IMG/VR virus record: IMGVR_UViG_3300037963_000130
Location: 12,193 to 38,392 of that record
Origin: a virus
Strand: one strand, 5' to 3'
Length of the DNA: 26,200 nt
Positions within the stretch are counted from its first letter, which is position 1. Each line of letters begins with the position of its first letter. The notes below the pieces were generated by a model that was not told the DNA's origin, made no database searches, and worked only from the letters and a program-made list of their open reading frames with translations. Of this stretch, positions 11,318 through 20,740 are shown piece after piece. Both the position numbers and the translations under genes were made by a program.

Positions 11318-12841
11318 ATGTCGTTAGCTGAAACGTTCGCTAAGAAGTATGCAGGACTACGTTCTGCATACGGAACGTTTACTTCTACAAATGAAACTAG
11401 AGAGGACGGCAAAGCCAGTGGTAAAAATATTACCATATCTAAAAACCTAGACGATAATGATGTCCTAGAGTTATGGACAAAACATCTATCGGGTCAACAA
11501 AGTTTAGGGATAGTCCCCATAAATGAAAATAACGAGTGTGTGTGGGGGGCTATAGATGTTGACGAATACCAATTAGATTTAAAACAACTAGCTATTAAAT
11601 TAGCAAAACAAAATCTGCCACTAATAATCTGTAGAAGTAAAAGTGGCGGTGCACATATATACATATTTTTAATAGACCCTGTCCCTGCTTCTATGCTACA
11701 AAGAAAACTTAGACAGATTGCCGCTTCTATAGGCTATGGTCAAGCAGAGATATTTCCTAAACAAACTAAACTATTATTAGATAGAGGGGATAGAGGAAGC
11801 ACACTTAATATGCCGTATTTTGGTGGCGAAAACTCAACAAGGTATGCTTACGGCGTAGAAGGACAAGCACTTACACCAACAGAATTTATAGAACGTATAG
11901 AAGAAATACAAATAAACTCAAAAACATTAGAACTATTAGAGGCTAGCCCTTTGAATGAACAACATGAATGGTTAGACCAAGCACCACCATGTATTCAACA
12001 TCTAGTTGTACAAGGTTTTCCTAAAGGCACACGTAATTCAGGATTGTTCAACGTTGGTGTATTTTTGCGTAAAAAGTATGCAGACGATTGGGAAAAAAGA
12101 CTAGAAGATATTAATATACAGTATATGCAACCACCTTTAGGTGCACAAGAAGTTCTAACAGTTGTAAAACAATTAAAACGTAAAGATTATTTTTATAGAT
12201 GTAATGACCAACCCATAGCAAGTCACTGTAATAGTCCACTATGTCGAACTCGTAAGTTCGGTATAGGAGCCAATGGTGGCACACCTTTATTTAGTAATCT
12301 TACAAAACAAGATAGTGACCCACCGATATGGTTTTTAGATGTAGAGGGGGGTAGACTAGAACTAGAAACAGATGACCTATTAAATCAAAACAGGTTTCAG
12401 CGTAAATGTATGGACGCTCTCAATAAAATACCACCTAAAGTAAAAGATAATGTCTGGAGACAAATTATACAACAGCTACTAGATGTTATTACTATTGTAG
12501 AAGTTCCTAAAGAAAGTTCTACTGAAGGACATTTTATGGAGCTATTAGAAGCTTTTTGTACAGAACGACCTGCTAGAGAAAGAGATGAATTATTATTACA
12601 TAAACCATGGACAAATAAAGGTAAAACATATTTCAGATTAGCAGACTTGATGGATTATTTACATAGAAATAATTTTAAAGAATACCAAAGAAACAGGTTA
12701 ACATCTAAATTAAAACAGCTTGATGGTGAGCCTTATTTTTTCAATATTAAAGGCAAAGGTGTAAACGTATGGTATATTAATGAATTCGAAACTCAAAATG
12801 AGCCCCACGACTTACCAGAGTTTAACGATACAAAAATATGA
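11318..12841 (+). CDS. AEP-type DNA primase (TOTE/PrimPol-like)
   Basis: This 507-aa protein belongs to the archaeo-eukaryotic primase superfamily, which makes primers (and often DNA) for phage replication. The metal-binding motif is GAIDVDEY (D80, D82). The second motif is RSKSGGAH (S109, H113). A KLLLDRGDRGSTLNMPYF segment follows. Around residues 292-316 a Cys/His cluster (CNDQPIASHC---LC) followed by RTRKFGIG resembles the zinc-binding segment seen after the catalytic domain in phage and TOTE-type primases. The C-terminal part (residues about 350-507) looks like a helical PriCT/winged-helix region. It follows the SSB-like gene by 2 bp, has no good ribosome binding site and is probably translationally coupled. 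Confidence 0.85.
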   Translation: MSLAETFAKKYAGLRSAYGTFTSTNETREDGKASGKNITISKNLDDNDVLELWTKHLSGQQSLGIVPINENNECVWGAIDVDEYQLDLKQLAIKLAKQNLPLIICRSKSGGAHIYIFLIDPVPASMLQRKLRQIAASIGYGQAEIFPKQTKLLLDRGDRGSTLNMPYFGGENSTRYAYGVEGQALTPTEFIERIEEIQINSKTLELLEASPLNEQHEWLDQAPPCIQHLVVQGFPKGTRNSGLFNVGVFLRKKYADDWEKRLEDINIQYMQPPLGAQEVLTVVKQLKRKDYFYRCNDQPIASHCNSPLCRTRKFGIGANGGTPLFSNLTKQDSDPPIWFLDVEGGRLELETDDLLNQNRFQRKCMDALNKIPPKVKDNVWRQIIQQLLDVITIVEVPKESSTEGHFMELLEAFCTERPARERDELLLHKPWTNKGKTYFRLADLMDYLHRNNFKEYQRNRLTSKLKQLDGEPYFFNIKGKGVNVWYINEFETQNEPHDLPEFNDTKI

Positions 12842-13425
12842 TAGATTTTAAAAAAGGATATTTCAAAAAAGAAAACCCTGTTATTACTGATTGGGATGAG
12901 CCTACCATACGTGAGTTTAACGGTCATAAAGTTTTAGGCAGAAAAACAGTCGGTTATGGAAATACTTTTGCATACGCAGGTAAAGAATATAAAGGACGCT
13001 TGTGGACAGATAACCACCGTATCTTTAGAATTAAAACATTAACTGAGTATATGCTATTACGAGATTATGATTTACGAGTTGATTTTTCGTTTTGTCTATG
13101 TGGGTATTATGGTGTTGATGGCAAAGGAATCCCCCACCACAGCGACACCGTACCCACATTAGATGACTTAGTTGTCTCTATATCGTTTGGAGCACCAAGA
13201 GTATTTACTTGGCGGTATTATCAAAATGAAATAAAAAAGAAAACAGATACAAGCGAGATAGAAACAAAAATAGAAAACTTTGTAGTTGCTGAAGATACAT
13301 ATCTATTAGAACACGGCGACGTATTAATATTCGATGGACATAGCCAGATGAAATCTACTCACGCTGTACCCGACATCGTTGGTGCAGAAGAAAGAATTAA
13401 CCTTACATTTAGGACGGGTATATGA
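12838..13425 (+). CDS. alkB-like: AlkB-like 2-oxoglutarate/Fe(II) dioxygenase
   Basis: This 195-aa protein, about the size of E. coli AlkB (216 aa), shows the complete AlkB signature. The iron ligands are H101-x-D103 (PHHSDTV) and H175 (KSTHAV), and the 2-oxoglutarate motif R186-x-N-x-T-F-R192 (RINLTFR) is present. FDGHSQMKSTH matches the usual GG-S-x4-H segment before the distal histidine. The known AlkB reaction is oxidative removal of alkyl groups from N1-methyladenine and N3-methylcytosine in DNA or RNA. Here it sits between primase and UvrD helicase with 4-bp ATGA overlaps on both sides, so it is made with the replication proteins. Repair of phage DNA is the default reading, and a role in base modification is possible. 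Confidence 0.85.
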   Translation: MIDFKKGYFKKENPVITDWDEPTIREFNGHKVLGRKTVGYGNTFAYAGKEYKGRLWTDNHRIFRIKTLTEYMLLRDYDLRVDFSFCLCGYYGVDGKGIPHHSDTVPTLDDLVVSISFGAPRVFTWRYYQNEIKKKTDTSEIETKIENFVVAEDTYLLEHGDVLIFDGHSQMKSTHAVPDIVGAEERINLTFRTGI

Positions 13426-14951: not shown

Positions 14952-14989
14952 TATATGGTAAATTTATGTTTAAAAGAAAGGAGAGATAT

Positions 14990-15472
14990 ATGAACATATT
15001 TTATTTTAACGAGTGTCCTGTAAAGTCGGCACAAGACCAACCCGATAAGTTGTTGGTTAAAATGCCGCTTGAAACAGCACAGATGTTATGTACCGCCCAT
15101 AGGGTATTAGACGGCGATGAAGAATCAGATAAGCTCGGTTTATATAAAACTGCTTATAAAAATCATCCGTGCACTATATGGGCTAGAGAAACAAGTGGTA
15201 ATTATAGATGGCTCTATAATCACTTTATAGCGTTAGGTGACGAATATACTCACCGATACGGTAAAAATCATCTTAGCGTAGAAAAGTTAAGGGAAGCATT
15301 ATATTTAGCACCTGCTAATATAACTATTAATGCGATGACACCTTTAGCACAAGCTATGCCTGATGAGTATAAGAATAAAAACCCTGTAAAAGCGTACAGG
15401 GATTATGTGATACATGAAAAACATTACGCTCAATGGAATAGAAATAGACAACAACCAAGTTGGTGGAGGTAA
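14990..15472 (+). CDS. Conserved phage protein (NIFYF / VKMPLETAQMLCTAHR family)
   Basis: The start is the ATG at 14990, seven bases after AGAAAGGAG (14975-14983). An upstream in-frame ATG at 14966 lies before this ribosome binding site and lacks its own. The 160-aa product has the pattern NIFYFNECPVKSAQ, VKMPLETAQMLCTAHRVL, then NHPCTIWARE-NYRWLYNHF and DEYTHRYGK. I recognise this layout from proteins common in marine T4-like and other phages. They have conserved His, Cys and Arg residues but no established activity. It opens the operon carrying the thymidine-modification genes, so a nucleotide-related role is conceivable. The C-terminus (YRDYVIHEKHYAQW...PSWWR) is basic and aromatic. Confidence 0.75.
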   Translation: MNIFYFNECPVKSAQDQPDKLLVKMPLETAQMLCTAHRVLDGDEESDKLGLYKTAYKNHPCTIWARETSGNYRWLYNHFIALGDEYTHRYGKNHLSVEKLREALYLAPANITINAMTPLAQAMPDEYKNKNPVKAYRDYVIHEKHYAQWNRNRQQPSWWR

Positions 15473-15475
15473 ATT

Positions 15476-16315
15476 ATGTCATCTATTAGAAAGAAACTTT
15501 TAGTAAACGAAAACGATAGTAAAAACACAAGGATGGATATTGCTAGTGCGGGTGTATTAGCTAATTGGCGTCCTGATGAAATAGCTCATATGAGTCGTTT
15601 CGATAAAATAGCTTCTCTATGTATAGAAGAAGCAAAAAGATTAGGCAGACCATTAGATACTTTTGAAGTAGGCTGCGGTGAATGTTGGGCTTTAAGAAAC
15701 CTATATAAAGCATATGTTATTAAAAAGACAGATGTTATAGCTTCTTTTTATGGCACAGATATAGACCCTGCTTGTGAAATGGAATTACCTTATTGGTCTA
15801 ACGCGGGGGGTAAAGTTATGGACTCTACGTGGTTCCAGAATTTTAATCCAACGATAGTAATTCAAGACTTAACAGTCGACCCTGTATTTAAACTAGAGGA
15901 CGAAAGTATAGATTTCTTTTGGTCTACTGAAGTTATTGAACATATGGGTAGACAGTTTATAGCTCCGTGGCTTGACGATGTAGCTAGGGTGATGCGTCCT
16001 GGAGCTTTAGGTTTTGTATCTACTCCTAACCATGACGGCTCTAACGATAAACTACCTGAAGACCACGTATATGAGTGGGGTTTCCAAGAACTAAAAGATG
16101 AGTTAGAAAGAAACTTTACTATAGAAGCTGTTACAGGAACATTTATACAAATGCCTAATTTAAAGAAAGCTATGAAAATTCCTAACTTAGGATGGACTCC
16201 AGAACAATTTAGTATGTTAGAAAATAGATACGGTAGACAGTTTTTAAGAGTTGTTGCTGCAACATTCTATCCAGAATATGCGAATAACTGTTCATGGGTA
16301 TTGCGTAAAAAGTAA
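15476..16315 (+). CDS. Class I SAM-dependent methyltransferase
   Basis: This 279-aa protein has GGAGG ahead of its ATG. The Rossmann-fold motifs are clear: motif I FEVGCGEC (63-70), the acidic strand-2 end YGTDID (92-97), then IQDLTVDP, and a motif IV/post-IV segment FFWSTEVIEHM. A strand with RPGALGFVSTPNHDGS follows. This matches the Methyltransf_11/type-12-like group of small-molecule or nucleotide methyltransferases, not the DPPY/NPPY amino-methyltransferases of restriction systems. It is joined by a TAATG to the pyrophosphorylase-like gene, so it probably acts in the same pathway, perhaps methylating a modified base or its precursor. The substrate is inference. Confidence 0.8.
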   Translation: MSSIRKKLLVNENDSKNTRMDIASAGVLANWRPDEIAHMSRFDKIASLCIEEAKRLGRPLDTFEVGCGECWALRNLYKAYVIKKTDVIASFYGTDIDPACEMELPYWSNAGGKVMDSTWFQNFNPTIVIQDLTVDPVFKLEDESIDFFWSTEVIEHMGRQFIAPWLDDVARVMRPGALGFVSTPNHDGSNDKLPEDHVYEWGFQELKDELERNFTIEAVTGTFIQMPNLKKAMKIPNLGWTPEQFSMLENRYGRQFLRVVAATFYPEYANNCSWVLRKK

Positions 16316-17214
16316 TGTTTATTCAAGAGGAACTTGATAGATACTTGTATTGGCAAGTAGAGAGGGAAAACATCAGACTACAAAAAGAAGTCCAAAACTT
16401 CCCACCTCCTTGGACTGATGACCCTATACTTCAGCAGTATAAGTTCTGTCAAGTTTTTCGCGAAGAAGATAGAACAACTCGTTGGTTTAAAAAACATATA
16501 CGAGAGCCTATGCGTGAAGATACTGACGTGCTTATGGCTACGGTTATTTTTCGTTGGTTTAATTGGATACCTACTGGAAGAACTCTGATAAAACACGACT
16601 TACTTAAAAATTGGGATAGAAAAAAAGCGATAGAAGAAATAACTAAACAAGATAAATGGGTCACAGGAGCTTATATAGTAAAGTCTCCAAACGGTATGGA
16701 TAAAGTTACAGGTGTAGCAGAATGTATAACCCATATGTGGGAACGTAAAGATTATATGATAGAAAAGCTTGTAAAACGTAGAGATAATAATGAAAGTTCT
16801 TTAGAGTATTGTTGGAATTTATTACGAGAATATCCATACATGGGACCGTTCATGGCTTATGAAGTTGTTACAGATTTAAGATTTACTTACCTATTACAAG
16901 GAGCAAATGATAGATATTCATGGGCTAATGCAGGTCCAGGAGCTATGCGAGGACTAAACAGATTAACAGGTAGACCATTAGATTTTTGTCAGCGTAGCCA
17001 TGATTGGTGTAGTGAAATGGTGGCGTTATACGATATAGCACTACATAAACTACCAGTAAACATAACTTTTAGAAATGATTTACCTTATGAGATGAGAGAA
17101 ATAGAGGGGGGTTTATGTGAGTTTGATAAGTATTCTCGTATTTATAAAGGCGAGGGAAGAACAAGGTCTATGTATACCTATGACGAAAATTTACCATTAG
17201 TGGAGGAACTATGA
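16315..17214 (+). CDS. Alpha-glutamyl/putrescinyl-thymine pyrophosphorylase-like (5-hmdU DNA kinase helical domain) protein
   Basis: This 299-aa helical protein belongs to the aGPT-Pplase/HMUDK-helical group, most like clade 3 by pattern. It shows FPPPWTDDPIL then FCQVFREEDRTTRWF (residues 29-58), VIFRWFN (78-83), YPYMGPFMAYEVVTDLR (173-189) and WANAGPGAMRGLNRL (203-217). Members of this group act in phage thymidine hypermodification. There 5-hydroxymethyl-dU in DNA is activated as a pyrophosphate, and the pyrophosphate is displaced by an amino acid, polyamine or other nucleophile. The gene lies between a methyltransferase and a thymidylate-synthase-like gene, with overlaps at both ends. No P-loop 5-hmdU kinase domain is attached. 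The family call is confident, the reaction here is inferred. Confidence 0.8.
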   Translation: MFIQEELDRYLYWQVERENIRLQKEVQNFPPPWTDDPILQQYKFCQVFREEDRTTRWFKKHIREPMREDTDVLMATVIFRWFNWIPTGRTLIKHDLLKNWDRKKAIEEITKQDKWVTGAYIVKSPNGMDKVTGVAECITHMWERKDYMIEKLVKRRDNNESSLEYCWNLLREYPYMGPFMAYEVVTDLRFTYLLQGANDRYSWANAGPGAMRGLNRLTGRPLDFCQRSHDWCSEMVALYDIALHKLPVNITFRNDLPYEMREIEGGLCEFDKYSRIYKGEGRTRSMYTYDENLPLVEEL

Positions 17215-18239
17215 AAGTTATAAAAGTTAGAAATGTAAACGAGGCTATTTTAAGAGGTGTAGATTTATTTCAAGATGAAACAAATTATATCGAACAAGAC
17301 AGTAGAAACGGTAAAACATTAGAATGTGTTGACCCTGTTACTACTGTATACCTAAAACCAACAGAAAGAGTATGTCTTATAGAAGCAAGAGATGCAAATC
17401 CTTTCTTTCACTTTATAGAAAGTATGTGGATGTTAGCAGGCAGAAACGATTTAAAATCATTAACTTATTATGTTGCGAGTATGTCTAATTTTTCAGATGA
17501 TGGCGAAACTCTATGGGGTGCGTATGGTTATAGGTGGAGAAAATATTTTCATAAAGACCAAATAGATATGATTGTAAAACTTCTTAAAGAAAACCCAGAC
17601 GATAGACGTGCAGTATTACAGATGTGGGACCCAAATAAAGATTTAGCTAGAGTCAGTAAAGATGTGCCTTGTAATACTAATATTTATTTTAAGATAAGAG
17701 ATAATAAATTAAATATGACTGTTTGTAATAGGTCTAACGATATGCTATGGGGTGCGTATGGTGCCAACGTGGTACATATGTCAGTGCTACAAGAACTTGT
17801 TGCACATAGACTTGGTGTACCCGTTGGCGTATATCGACAAGTTAGTGATAGTTTTCATGTCTATATTAACGAGGTATGGGATAAAGTTAAACATTTATCT
17901 ATAGATGTTTATACACCTTTTAAAAATATTTACGAAACTTTGCCTGATTACCAATGTAGTGATTTATTTATAGAACATGATTGTTTAGACTGGGAACACG
18001 ATAGATTTTTTAATTACCACCCTGCAGATATCATAGGTGCTGCTAATTGGGTAAACCCCTGTTATAGAGATATTGCAGTGCCTATGGCAATTACTTATTA
18101 TTTATATAAATCAGGAAAGTATGAGGAAGCATACGCACACTGTGATTATATAATTCCAAAAGATTGGAAAAACGCTTGTCTTAGTTGGCTCCGCACCCGA
18201 GAAGAGCGTAGAAATAACCATGCGGAAAAAGGAGAATAA
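17211..18239 (+). CDS. Thymidylate synthase-family protein, likely dUMP hydroxymethylase or TS
   Basis: This 342-aa member of the ThyA/dNMP hydroxymethylase superfamily has GGAGG ahead of its ATG and overlaps the preceding gene (ATGA). Conserved positions are an SRNG phosphate-loop-like segment (31-34), FIESMWMLAGRNDL with E70, LWGAYGYRW (101-109), R132/R133 (DDRRAVLQMW), nucleophile C154 (DVPCN), NRSNDMLWGAYGANVVH (173-189) and SFHVYIN (214-220). The canonical PPCH is altered to PCN, and the substrate-discriminating loop differs from ThyA, as in phage enzymes linked to modified bases. It would convert dUMP to dTMP or 5-hydroxymethyl-dUMP with methylene-tetrahydrofolate. Its adjacency to the pyrophosphorylase-like gene favours hydroxymethylation, but sequence alone does not decide. 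Confidence 0.8.
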   Translation: MKVIKVRNVNEAILRGVDLFQDETNYIEQDSRNGKTLECVDPVTTVYLKPTERVCLIEARDANPFFHFIESMWMLAGRNDLKSLTYYVASMSNFSDDGETLWGAYGYRWRKYFHKDQIDMIVKLLKENPDDRRAVLQMWDPNKDLARVSKDVPCNTNIYFKIRDNKLNMTVCNRSNDMLWGAYGANVVHMSVLQELVAHRLGVPVGVYRQVSDSFHVYINEVWDKVKHLSIDVYTPFKNIYETLPDYQCSDLFIEHDCLDWEHDRFFNYHPADIIGAANWVNPCYRDIAVPMAITYYLYKSGKYEEAYAHCDYIIPKDWKNACLSWLRTREERRNNHAEKGE

Positions 18240-18240
18240 C

Positions 18241-18585
18241 ATGAGTGCAGATTTTAATCTCATGAAAGAAGTTGCTCAAAACGATTTACAAGCTCTACAA
18301 CGAGCGGAACAATCTTACGGCGATTCTTGGAAAAGACGTGGCGGTGTCGGTGCCTTTATGATGCTTGCTCGTAAGTTCGATAGGATAGAACATCAATCTG
18401 AAAAACATGGTTGGGATATCTTCGAAGCGGGTAAAGTATATAGTGGCGAGGCAGGTCTATTAGACGATATACGTGATTTACGTAGATATCTTTTACTAGT
18501 AGAACAAGAAATACTTGTTCAAACTACAGATGAACCACAAGAAATAACAGAATCTTATAACGACGTAGACGAGGAGGATATATGA
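18241..18585 (+). CDS. Nmad1/DUF1599-like phage protein
   Basis: The start chosen is the ATG at 18241, six bases after AAAAAGGAG. An in-frame ATG at 18220 lies before that site and inside the previous gene. The 114-aa helical protein has SYGDSWKRRGGVGAFMMLARKFDRIE (residues 25-50), GWDIF and DDIRDLRRYLLLVE (75-88). This Y-G-x-SW...K-DRI...D(D/I)-DL-RYLL pattern is widespread in phages and resembles nucleotide modification associated domain 1 (DUF1599), an all-alpha domain that co-occurs with base-modification genes. The acidic tail is DVDEED. One base separates it from the thymidylate-synthase-like gene, supporting a role in nucleotide handling. The domain assignment is moderate. Confidence 0.65.
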   Translation: MSADFNLMKEVAQNDLQALQRAEQSYGDSWKRRGGVGAFMMLARKFDRIEHQSEKHGWDIFEAGKVYSGEAGLLDDIRDLRRYLLLVEQEILVQTTDEPQEITESYNDVDEEDI

Positions 18586-18878
18586 GTTTTTGGAATAAAT
18601 TAAAAGGTTTTTTAGGATTACCTACACAAGAAAGTGCAGAAGTAACAAAAGTTAAAAAACTTTTAAAAGAAGCAGAAATAATTGATGCTGCAATAGAAGA
18701 AGCAACAGTAGAACTAAAACCTTTAACATCAGCTAAAACTGTAAAAGAAGGCGTAGTGCCTGTAACACCTAAACGTGCTAGAACTAAAAAAGGAAGATAT
18801 GTTGCTGACGATAAATCTACTCCTGATGTAAACGAAGCATGGGTAGGCGGAAAAGCACCTAAAAAGAAGAAGAAGTGA
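18582..18878 (+). CDS. Small basic phage protein, unknown function
   Basis: This 98-aa protein is preceded by GAGGAGG and overlaps the upstream stop (ATGA). The N-terminal half is amphipathic helix (FWNKLKGFLGLP, then KKLLKEAEIIDAAIEEATVE). The C-terminal half has RARTKKGRYVADDKSTPDVN followed by EAW and a poly-Lys end. The KKGRY-ADD-x-TPD-NEAW segment recurs in small proteins of other marine phages, always with unknown function. The basic tail could bind nucleic acid. Its final codons overlap the GTG start of DNA polymerase, coupling the two. Confidence 0.6.
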   Translation: MSFWNKLKGFLGLPTQESAEVTKVKKLLKEAEIIDAAIEEATVELKPLTSAKTVKEGVVPVTPKRARTKKGRYVADDKSTPDVNEAWVGGKAPKKKKK

Positions 18879-20740
18879 TTTTGCAAAGTCCTTTATTTAA
18901 ACCCGAAAGTTCATGGTCTGTGCCTGATGTGTTTCCACAGTTTGCAACTGATGAAACGGTAGCCATAGACCTTGAGACTTATGACCCTAATCTACTCATC
19001 AATGGTCCAGGTTGGGCTACAGGTAATGGTCATATTGTTGGTGTGGGTGTTGCTACAAAAGATTGGCATGGGTATTTTCCTATACGTCATGAAGGTGGCG
19101 GCAATTTAGATGAGGGTATTGTATTAAGGTGGTTAAAAAATGTTTTATCTACCCAACGCAAAGTAATCTTTCATAATTCTCTGTATGATGTTGGGTGGTT
19201 AAAAAGGGAAGGCATTGATATACAAGGTACAATCCTTGATACTATCATTGCCGCCCCTCTACTAGACGAAAATAGATTTTCATATTCGCTAGATAATTTA
19301 GGTAAAGATTGGTGTAACGAAACTAAAGATGAAACGTTATTACAAGACGCTGCACTTACTTATGGTGTTAACCCTAAAAGCGAAATGTATAGACTACCCG
19401 CAAAATACGTTGGACCTTACGGTGAACAAGACGCCATACTTACTTATAAACTGTGGCATAAATTAGAAGAACAAATTAAAGAACAAGATTTAGAAAAAGT
19501 TTTATATATGGAACTTAGCCTAATACCTCTACTTATCGAAATGCGATGGAGGGGTGTAAGAGTCGATACTAATAAAGCAGATGAAGTTAGTAGTCGATTA
19601 TCTAAAGAAGAACAACTTATACAAGTAGAAATAAAAAGGAAATATGGTAGTGATGTAAATTTATGGGCTAACGCTTCATTACAAAACATATTCGATAAAA
19701 ACGATTTATGGTATCCACGTACAGAAAAAGGCACACCTAGTTTTCAAAGACAGTGGTTAGAAGGACATGAACACGAGTTGCCTAAACTAATTGTTAGGGC
19801 TAGAAAGTTAAATAAAGCGAGAACTACGTTTATTGATAAAATGATAGGCGACCATGTATTTAATGGTCGTATACATGCAGAAGCTCACCCTATGCGTAAC
19901 GACAGGGGTGGCACAGTCAGTGGTAGATTTAGTTATAGTAATCCTAATCTACAACAAGTCCCTGCTCGTGACCCAGAAATAGGTAATTTAATACGGTCAT
20001 TATTTATACCAGAAGAAGGCTGTGAATGGGGAGCGTTTGACTATTCACAACAAGAGCCTAGACTTACGGTGCATTACGCCAACGAAATGAGTCTACGTGG
20101 CTCACAAGAAGCTGTACAACAGTATACAGAAAATAATGCAGACTTTCACCAGATAGTTGCAGATATGGCAAACATACCACGTAAACAAGCTAAAACGATT
20201 AATCTAGGATTAAGCTATGGTATGGGTAAAGAAAAATTAATTAGAGAGCTAGGGCTAGACGAGTTCGAAGCAGAAAAATTATTTCAACAATATCATGAAA
20301 AAGTTCCGTTTATAAAAGCATTACAAGACCAATGCACTCGGATAGCGAATTTAAAAGGATTTATAAAAACTATCGGTGGGCGTAGATGTCGTTTCGATTT
20401 ATGGGAAAGTAAATTTGAAAGAACTACACCGCTAGCAAAAGATGAAGCAATAACAAAATACGGCGATGAACTAAAACGTTCATTTACTTATAAAGCACTC
20501 AACCGTTTGATACAAGGCTCTGCGGCTGATATGACTAAATTAGCCATGATAGAACTATGGAAGGAAGGAATAGTCCCACACTTGCAAATACATGATGAGG
20601 TAGATATATCTATCGAAAATCATGCTCAGGCTAAAAAAGTTATAGAGATTATGGAAAACTGTGTAAAAATCGCAGTTCCTCTATTAGTCGACGCAGAGCT
20701 TGGTCAATCTTGGGGCGAAGTTAAGGAGATAACTCTATGA
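18875..20740 (+). CDS. polA-like: Family A DNA polymerase with 3'-5' exonuclease
   Basis: This is a 621-aa replicative polymerase. Exonuclease motifs are IDLET (D32, E34), FHNSLYD (D105) and YGEQD (Y182, D186), so proofreading appears intact. Polymerase motifs are A, FDYSQQEPRL (D389); B, RKQAKTINLGLSYG (R436-G449); and C, IHDEVD (H573-D574-E575). There is no 5'-3' nuclease domain. The residue equivalent to E. coli Phe762 is Leu444, a known subgroup among phage PolA enzymes. The start is GTG at 18875 within a GTGA overlap with the preceding stop; a TTG two codons later is the alternative. It is the distal member of the operon that includes the base-modification genes, so the polymerase and its altered substrates would be made together. 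Confidence 0.95.
   Translation: MILQSPLFKPESSWSVPDVFPQFATDETVAIDLETYDPNLLINGPGWATGNGHIVGVGVATKDWHGYFPIRHEGGGNLDEGIVLRWLKNVLSTQRKVIFHNSLYDVGWLKREGIDIQGTILDTIIAAPLLDENRFSYSLDNLGKDWCNETKDETLLQDAALTYGVNPKSEMYRLPAKYVGPYGEQDAILTYKLWHKLEEQIKEQDLEKVLYMELSLIPLLIEMRWRGVRVDTNKADEVSSRLSKEEQLIQVEIKRKYGSDVNLWANASLQNIFDKNDLWYPRTEKGTPSFQRQWLEGHEHELPKLIVRARKLNKARTTFIDKMIGDHVFNGRIHAEAHPMRNDRGGTVSGRFSYSNPNLQQVPARDPEIGNLIRSLFIPEEGCEWGAFDYSQQEPRLTVHYANEMSLRGSQEAVQQYTENNADFHQIVADMANIPRKQAKTINLGLSYGMGKEKLIRELGLDEFEAEKLFQQYHEKVPFIKALQDQCTRIANLKGFIKTIGGRRCRFDLWESKFERTTPLAKDEAITKYGDELKRSFTYKALNRLIQGSAADMTKLAMIELWKEGIVPHLQIHDEVDISIENHAQAKKVIEIMENCVKIAVPLLVDAELGQSWGEVKEITL

Follow-up and report, generated by a model that had tools for sequence, protein, structure and literature searches.

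The 26,200-nucleotide window analysed here, bases 12193-38392 of the 38,392-base IMG/VR virus record IMGVR_UViG_3300037963_000130, carries a run of genes that we read as a cassette for thymidine hypermodification that lacks a kinase and belongs to a pelagiphage-like virus. Its product would be 5-methoxymethyl-2'-deoxyuridine, and we consider this reading as a whole about as probable as all others together. The cassette consists of a predicted class I S-adenosylmethionine (SAM)-dependent methyltransferase of 279 aa (MT, 15476-16315), a PF18723 (HMUDK_hel) protein predicted to be a DNA- or base-binding partner (HEL, 16315-17214), a thymidylate synthase (TS)-superfamily enzyme predicted to be a dUMP 5-hydroxymethylase (17211-18239), and a small conserved protein of 121 aa that is associated with modification by its context (p121, 18220-18585). 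All lie on the plus strand and are followed there by DNA polymerase A (PolA, 18875-20740; PF00476, 209 bits). A preliminary description of this DNA had proposed a cassette based on 5-hydroxymethyl-2'-deoxyuridine (5-hmdU), with a methyltransferase in place of the customary partners and possibly a methylated hmdU derivative as end product. Both proposals are backed by sequence and context, the second by the position of MT at the place of the kinase of phage M6 and by the exchange of enzymes at that place, and formation of hmdU is well supported.

In the pathway that we propose, the TS-like enzyme would convert dUMP and methylene-tetrahydrofolate to 5-hydroxymethyl-dUMP, host kinases would phosphorylate this further to hmdUTP, and hmdUTP would be built into DNA by the phage PolA. 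HEL would then bind hmdU in the new DNA and present the base, and MT, acting with HEL, would transfer the SAM methyl group to the 5-hydroxymethyl oxygen. This last step would replace the kinase and amino-acid transferase route of M6, and p121 would assist hmdU metabolism. We infer the enzymatic activities, the level of methylation (DNA or nucleotide) and the product from what was observed: gene content, conservation, the absence of kinase and amino-acid:DNA transferase (ADDT) in profile searches, active-site residues and slot exchange.

The TS-like protein matches PF00303 (88.6 bits) and phrog_5131 (E 1.5e-112), and its best match in the PDB is CMP 5-hydroxymethylase (E 2.4e-26), with thymidylate synthases following at E 3.6e-15 and weaker. 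By alignment, Cys154 of a PCN motif is the nucleophile, Asn186 aligns with the uracil-selecting Asn of TS, where the CMP enzyme and Stenotrophomonas phage AXL3 have Asp, and Phe94 occupies the position of the conserved synthase Trp (6auj). The Asn/Asp and Trp positions separate dUMP from dCMP enzymes and synthases from hydroxymethylases. The protein thus combines all sequence marks of a dUMP 5-hydroxymethylase (TS fold, catalytic Cys, uracil-type Asn, loss of the synthase Trp) and is best read as one, in agreement with the type first assigned to it. An ordinary thymidylate synthase supplying dTMP to unmodified DNA would share the superfamily fold and motifs, and "thymidylate synthase" is the annotation in many phages. 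We regard this as the most improbable of the readings weighed here, since no NCBIfam thymidylate synthase model reaches its cut-off (best 104.7 bits against 174.55), a hydroxymethylase is the best structure match, the Trp is missing and the gene travels with HEL in the compared loci. The PCN motif, earlier described as altered, is present but ordinary: among 160 TS proteins from loci of this kind, 152 carry it, as do M6 gp58 and the enzyme of the SPO1-like Bacillus phage Goe26, and its treatment as a peculiarity was rejected.

The arrangement of the cassette is strongly conserved. In a first set of 169 loci, where many contigs are present twice because both MT and HEL queries fetched them, 157 have MT and every locus has HEL. 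Among the 85 loci of the MT query, each on its own contig, HEL is always present and lies directly downstream of MT in 84; divergent cassettes (MT about 55% and HEL about 50% identical) retain the gene order. The recurring order MT-HEL-TS-p121-PolA, together with this adjacency, argues that the arrangement is not due to chance. The records nearest to the window PolA are 023Pt_psg01, DSL-LC04 and HTVC023P; MT was not found in them, and no TS or HEL is annotated between their helicase and PolA genes, which lie close together. The block therefore behaves as one unit.

The enzymes that accompany HEL in M6 are missing. Searches of 34 related records (29 + 5), the window's included, gave no match to the kinase PF18748, and ADDT (PF18724) was not found in 29 records and another 6, again including the window's, whereas positive controls gave matches in both searches. 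A profile built from 14 diverse 5-hmdU kinases matched none of 26 related records but did match M6, PaMx11 and Pam3. The activation and aGPT-Pplase-catalysed substitution invoked in the preliminary description thus found no counterpart in the record analysed or in those related to it. A related genome of 61,952 bp ends in a 127-bp terminal repeat; since this repeat consists of short tandem units, it is likely, though not certain, that the genome is complete. Among its ORFs, a UvrD helicase is the sole clear Walker-A enzyme.

HEL belongs to PF18723, which Pfam describes as "5-hmdU DNA kinase, helical domain" (155.3 bits against a gathering score of 25; residues 7-278 aligned to model positions 4-276). 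Its earlier label, aGPT pyrophosphorylase-like with a 5-hmdU kinase helical domain, is right about the helical domain, but its first half carries an outdated mechanism. In database records the PF18723 protein goes by aGPT-Pplase1 and the Pam3 member of PF18724 by aGPT-Pplase2, and the true ADDT family is PF18724. As the family present here is PF18723 and PF18724 is absent, HEL is not an ADDT and substitution catalysed by an aGPT-Pplase was rejected. For HEL, a sequence search of the PDB gave no matches, and a fold search with its AlphaFold2 (AF2) model (predicted local distance difference test, pLDDT, 90.7) gave none at E <= 0.001. The best folds, both weak, were a DNA glycosylase and the PaMx11 gp46 glycinyltransferase (TM 0.42, E about 0.7). 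HEL is weakly HhH-glycosylase-like, and on this model a base-flipping role is plausible. We tentatively suggest that HEL is an adaptor of general use, locating 5-hmdU in DNA and flipping it for interchangeable tailoring enzymes, here an O-methyltransferase making 5-methoxymethyl-deoxyuridine, an undescribed base. HEL would then be no part of a kinase and might serve, with similarly guarded confidence, a kinase plus amino-acid transferase, glycosyltransferases or an O-methyltransferase. It could instead be catalytic itself, perhaps as a base-flipping transferase with kinship to the ADDT fold, with MT modifying its product into an adduct beyond methoxymethyl. The weak likeness of the HEL model to the glycinyltransferase and to DNA glycosylases would suit such a role, as would its many invariant polar residues; however, neither a kinase that would create a leaving group nor, nearby, a donor-making enzyme was found, and we consider a catalytic HEL very unlikely.

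The position beside HEL acts as an exchangeable slot. Classified by their neighbours, the 76 non-redundant loci found via HEL queries comprise 44 with MT, 10 with kinase, 11 with a TET-associated glycosyltransferase (TAGT, PF20691) and 5 with an FkbM methyltransferase plus a glycosyltransferase (GT); the remainder are 4 with a GT-B-like protein and radical SAM, 1 with FkbM and TAGT, and 1 with none. MT and kinase occur together in none of the 76. Assignments of TAGT, FkbM and radical SAM are Pfam matches above cut-off, the GT4-type match lies below the gathering score, and the "GT-B" label of locus L241, which has no Pfam match, comes from reading its sequence. On the HEL tree, which leaves out the Pam3 ADDT protein, the slot label needs 9 changes, and the starred branches force at least 4 kinase changes and at least 3 TAGT changes; MT may have a single origin on this tree.

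Several other cassettes came to light in the same loci. An FkbM methyltransferase, p121 and a GT4-like glycosyltransferase stand between HEL and TS, with the kinase absent, in L164 (6822-9102) and L217-L225, and the product there is possibly a methylated sugar on hmdU. The TAGT cassettes (L282-L296, L265) are mostly kinase-free, and L265 adds an NDP-sugar epimerase. A GT-B-like protein accompanies a SPASM radical SAM protein in L235, L241, L249 and L252, the last with an additional cytidylyltransferase-cupin protein.

The first gene was described at the outset as a SAM methyltransferase, and this is confirmed: MT is of class I, matches PF08241 Methyltransf_11 above cut-off (26.0 bits against 21.2) and has the SAM motif EVGCG at residue 64. 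A sequence search of the PDB gave one weak match. The AF2 model (pLDDT 80) has its best fold matches in TleD, AtmM, RebM and SpnF, and the modelled fold resembles small-molecule methyltransferases, not DNA amino-methyltransferases. The amino-methyltransferase motif [DNS]PP[YFW] was not found in the MT sequence, and with this and the fold in view a role as DNA amino-methyltransferase (N6-methyladenine or N4-methylcytosine) was rejected. Residues 1-30 are predicted to be disordered, yet they are strongly conserved, which suggests a binding partner, HEL and DNA being the candidates.

The nearest annotated phage relatives of MT are in ct3Et533, PW916 and AXL3 (26% identity). Aligned with hhalign to the profile of the AXL3-type methyltransferases, represented in AXL3 by gp31, MT scores a probability of 99.6% over 254 columns and its full length; with this homology and its linkage to a pyrimidine hydroxymethylase it belongs to that family. 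A viral scan queried with the ct3Et533 MT gave no matches, and among cellular genomes a scan returned a single close relative of MT, located on a 5-kb contig that may be viral in a Maricaulis metagenome-assembled genome, besides two weak partial matches. In AXL3 (L171, 6851-10885), ct3Et533 and the AXL3-type contigs (further loci L297-L318), MT precedes an NTPase, a dNMP kinase, an Asp-type (dCMP) hydroxymethylase and usually a dCMP deaminase, a few genes being undetected in single or truncated loci. AXL3 gp28 is annotated as thymidylate synthase yet bears the dCMP-type Asp. Of 37 restriction enzymes tried on AXL3 DNA, 35 were resisted and the two that cut have A/T-only sites (PMC7504290), which fits a modified C. 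The AXL3-type operon is predicted from its genes to make methylated 5-hydroxymethylcytosine (hmC). As the MT family thus stands beside the synthesis of both hmdU and hmdC, its shared target would be the 5-hydroxymethyl group (5-CH2OH pyrimidine), and from this shared substrate 5-methoxymethyl-dU is predicted. By this analogy MT is a predicted O-methyltransferase acting on the 5-hydroxymethyl group, and methylation of the hydroxyl is the most economical reading, with the chances for and against it roughly equal.

Methylation might take place at the nucleotide level, with MT converting hmdUMP to 5-methoxymethyl-dUMP before polymerisation and HEL playing a different role. The AXL3-type MT, which stands beside dNMP kinase, NTPase and hydroxymethylase genes with no HEL, and the small-molecule type of the modelled MT fold are in keeping with this. 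In the window group, however, MT goes together with HEL, and the enzyme that HEL usually accompanies, the 5-hmdU DNA kinase, works on DNA (PMC6449724), and no dNMP kinase is encoded; a nucleotide-level reaction here seems to us quite unlikely.

It is somewhat less improbable, although still unlikely, that the cassette yields plain 5-hmdU DNA and that MT is a chance or regulatory neighbour acting elsewhere, on another base, a protein or a small molecule. The family is generic (Methyltransf_11/23), and Goe26 keeps adjacent p121 and TS-like genes without this MT. An unrelated MT is hard to reconcile with its place directly 5' of HEL in 84 of 85 MT loci, with its replacement elsewhere by other tailoring enzymes, with its homologues in dCMP-hydroxymethylase operons and with its lack of the amino-methyltransferase motif.

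Methylation of hmdU by MT on DNA is nevertheless opposed by several points. At 38.4 kb the window's record is not complete, and a kinase might be encoded in the part that is missing, a concern tempered by fuller relatives that also lack one. No phage-encoded dTTPase/HD or hmdUMP kinase was recognised, which makes full replacement of T doubtful. The MT loci are phylogenetically clustered, and the mutual exclusion of MT and kinase is a pattern, not a count of independent events. Identity between MT and the AXL3 group is about 26%, and class I methyltransferases have many substrates. Finally, the likeness of the HEL model to a DNA glycosylase is weak (E about 0.7).

p121 was found in all 46 non-redundant MT loci but in 2 of 11 kinase-only loci. 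Homologues occur beside the TS gene (thyA) of Goe26 and inside the Pam3 hypermodification cassette. The fourth gene had been called Nmad1-like, which proved weak: the window protein has no Pfam match, and PF07659 (Nmad1) appears in one of 22 homologues at E 0.02, short of the curated threshold. Nmad1 membership was rejected on these grounds; by sequence, p121 would be a distant Nmad1 at best. A GGAG ribosome-binding site precedes position 18241, where homologues begin too, and the true start is probably there rather than at 18220, so that overlap with the TS gene is not required. The four genes had been reported as adjacent and overlapping. Adjacency on one strand stands, as do the overlaps of MT with HEL (1 base) and of HEL with TS (4 bases), but that of p121 with TS is doubtful. 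A fast-evolving 98-aa protein with no family above cut-off lies between p121 and PolA (18582-18878, plus strand) and was recognised in 122 of the 169 loci. PolA follows in the same run of genes, in line with the DNA polymerase earlier placed in the same operon; promoter and terminator scans stayed near chance level.

Upstream of the cassette stand an AlkB-like oxygenase, a UvrD-type helicase and a Pyr_excise-like protein. The Pyr_excise-like gene (14966-15472, plus strand; PF03013, 35.5 bits) is an optional neighbour, seen in 17 of the 46 non-redundant MT loci and in 4 of 9 TAGT loci, and in a minority of loci, TAGT cassettes included, it lies directly 5' of MT or HEL. The AlkB-like 2-oxoglutarate-Fe(II) oxygenase gene (12838-13425, plus strand; PF13532, 61.1 bits), likewise optional, occurs in 26 of the 46 and in one TAGT locus. 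It sits between primase and helicase, and its role could be in modified bases or repair. Upstream of the window, a type VIII secretion system (T8SS, curli-type) cluster holds CsgF, CsgG, FecR and CHASE2-adenylate cyclase genes (L002, 6932-11628).

The phage DNA probably carries a modified base so far undescribed, and a limited literature search found no paper on a methoxymethyl base in phage DNA. If 5-methoxymethyl-dU is indeed the product, the thymine modifications known so far, which bear amino groups or sugars, would be joined by one that is chemically new, very small and uncharged. This would also explain how HEL cassettes function without a kinase and assign to HEL the role of a shared adaptor on hmdU-DNA. 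The cassette is carried by a widespread group of ocean phages and is seen in many marine viral contigs with kinship to pelagiphages; the modified base could then be common in ocean viral DNA, where it could affect phage restriction, sequencing and detection. The link to AXL3 hints that in this cultured phage 5-hydroxymethylcytosine is capped by a methyl group in the same way.

Four known systems resemble the cassette in part. Goe26 shares a TS-type gene followed by a p121 homologue, but MT was not found in it; the Herelleviridae, its group, are known for plain 5-hmdU. AXL3 and Podoviridae ct3Et533 share a full-length MT homologue adjoining a pyrimidine hydroxymethylase, but theirs is Asp-type and comes with dNMP kinase, NTPase and dCMP deaminase, and HEL is absent. 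M6 and PaMx11 (Mesyanzhinovviridae) share HEL, a hydroxymethylase-type TS and PolA in identical order. In M6 the order is kinase gp54 (P-loop, PF18748), HEL gp55 (PF18723), TS gp58 and PolA gp62, with gp51 as the ADDT (PF18724). The 5-hmdU DNA kinases of both phages, M6 (NC_007809) gp54 (L003, 7381-7944) and PaMx11 gp49 (L005, 5393-5962), are annotated as terminase small subunit. A route through 5-hmdU has been proposed for M6, ViI and phiW-14 (PMC6449724). The window has the linkage of hydroxymethylase-type TS to HEL and PolA that marks an M6-type system, but MT takes the position of the kinase, no PF18748, PF18724, pyridoxal phosphate, radical-SAM or flavin adenine dinucleotide partner is present, and p121 is constant in its group. 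With the HTVC023P-type pelagiphages the record shares TS and aG/PT-PPlase1 near PolA, as well as T8SS genes. This pair has been proposed to act in thymidine hypermodification in clades V, VIII and IX, other clades having glucosyltransferase and 5'-deoxynucleotidase companions (PMC9599517). The main text of that paper mentions no methyltransferase ("methyl" occurs 0 times), and its passages on the pair do not remark on a missing kinase or ADDT. Set against those passages, the link of TS and HEL to hypermodification is already known, and MT in the place of kinase and transferase is a new variant of it.

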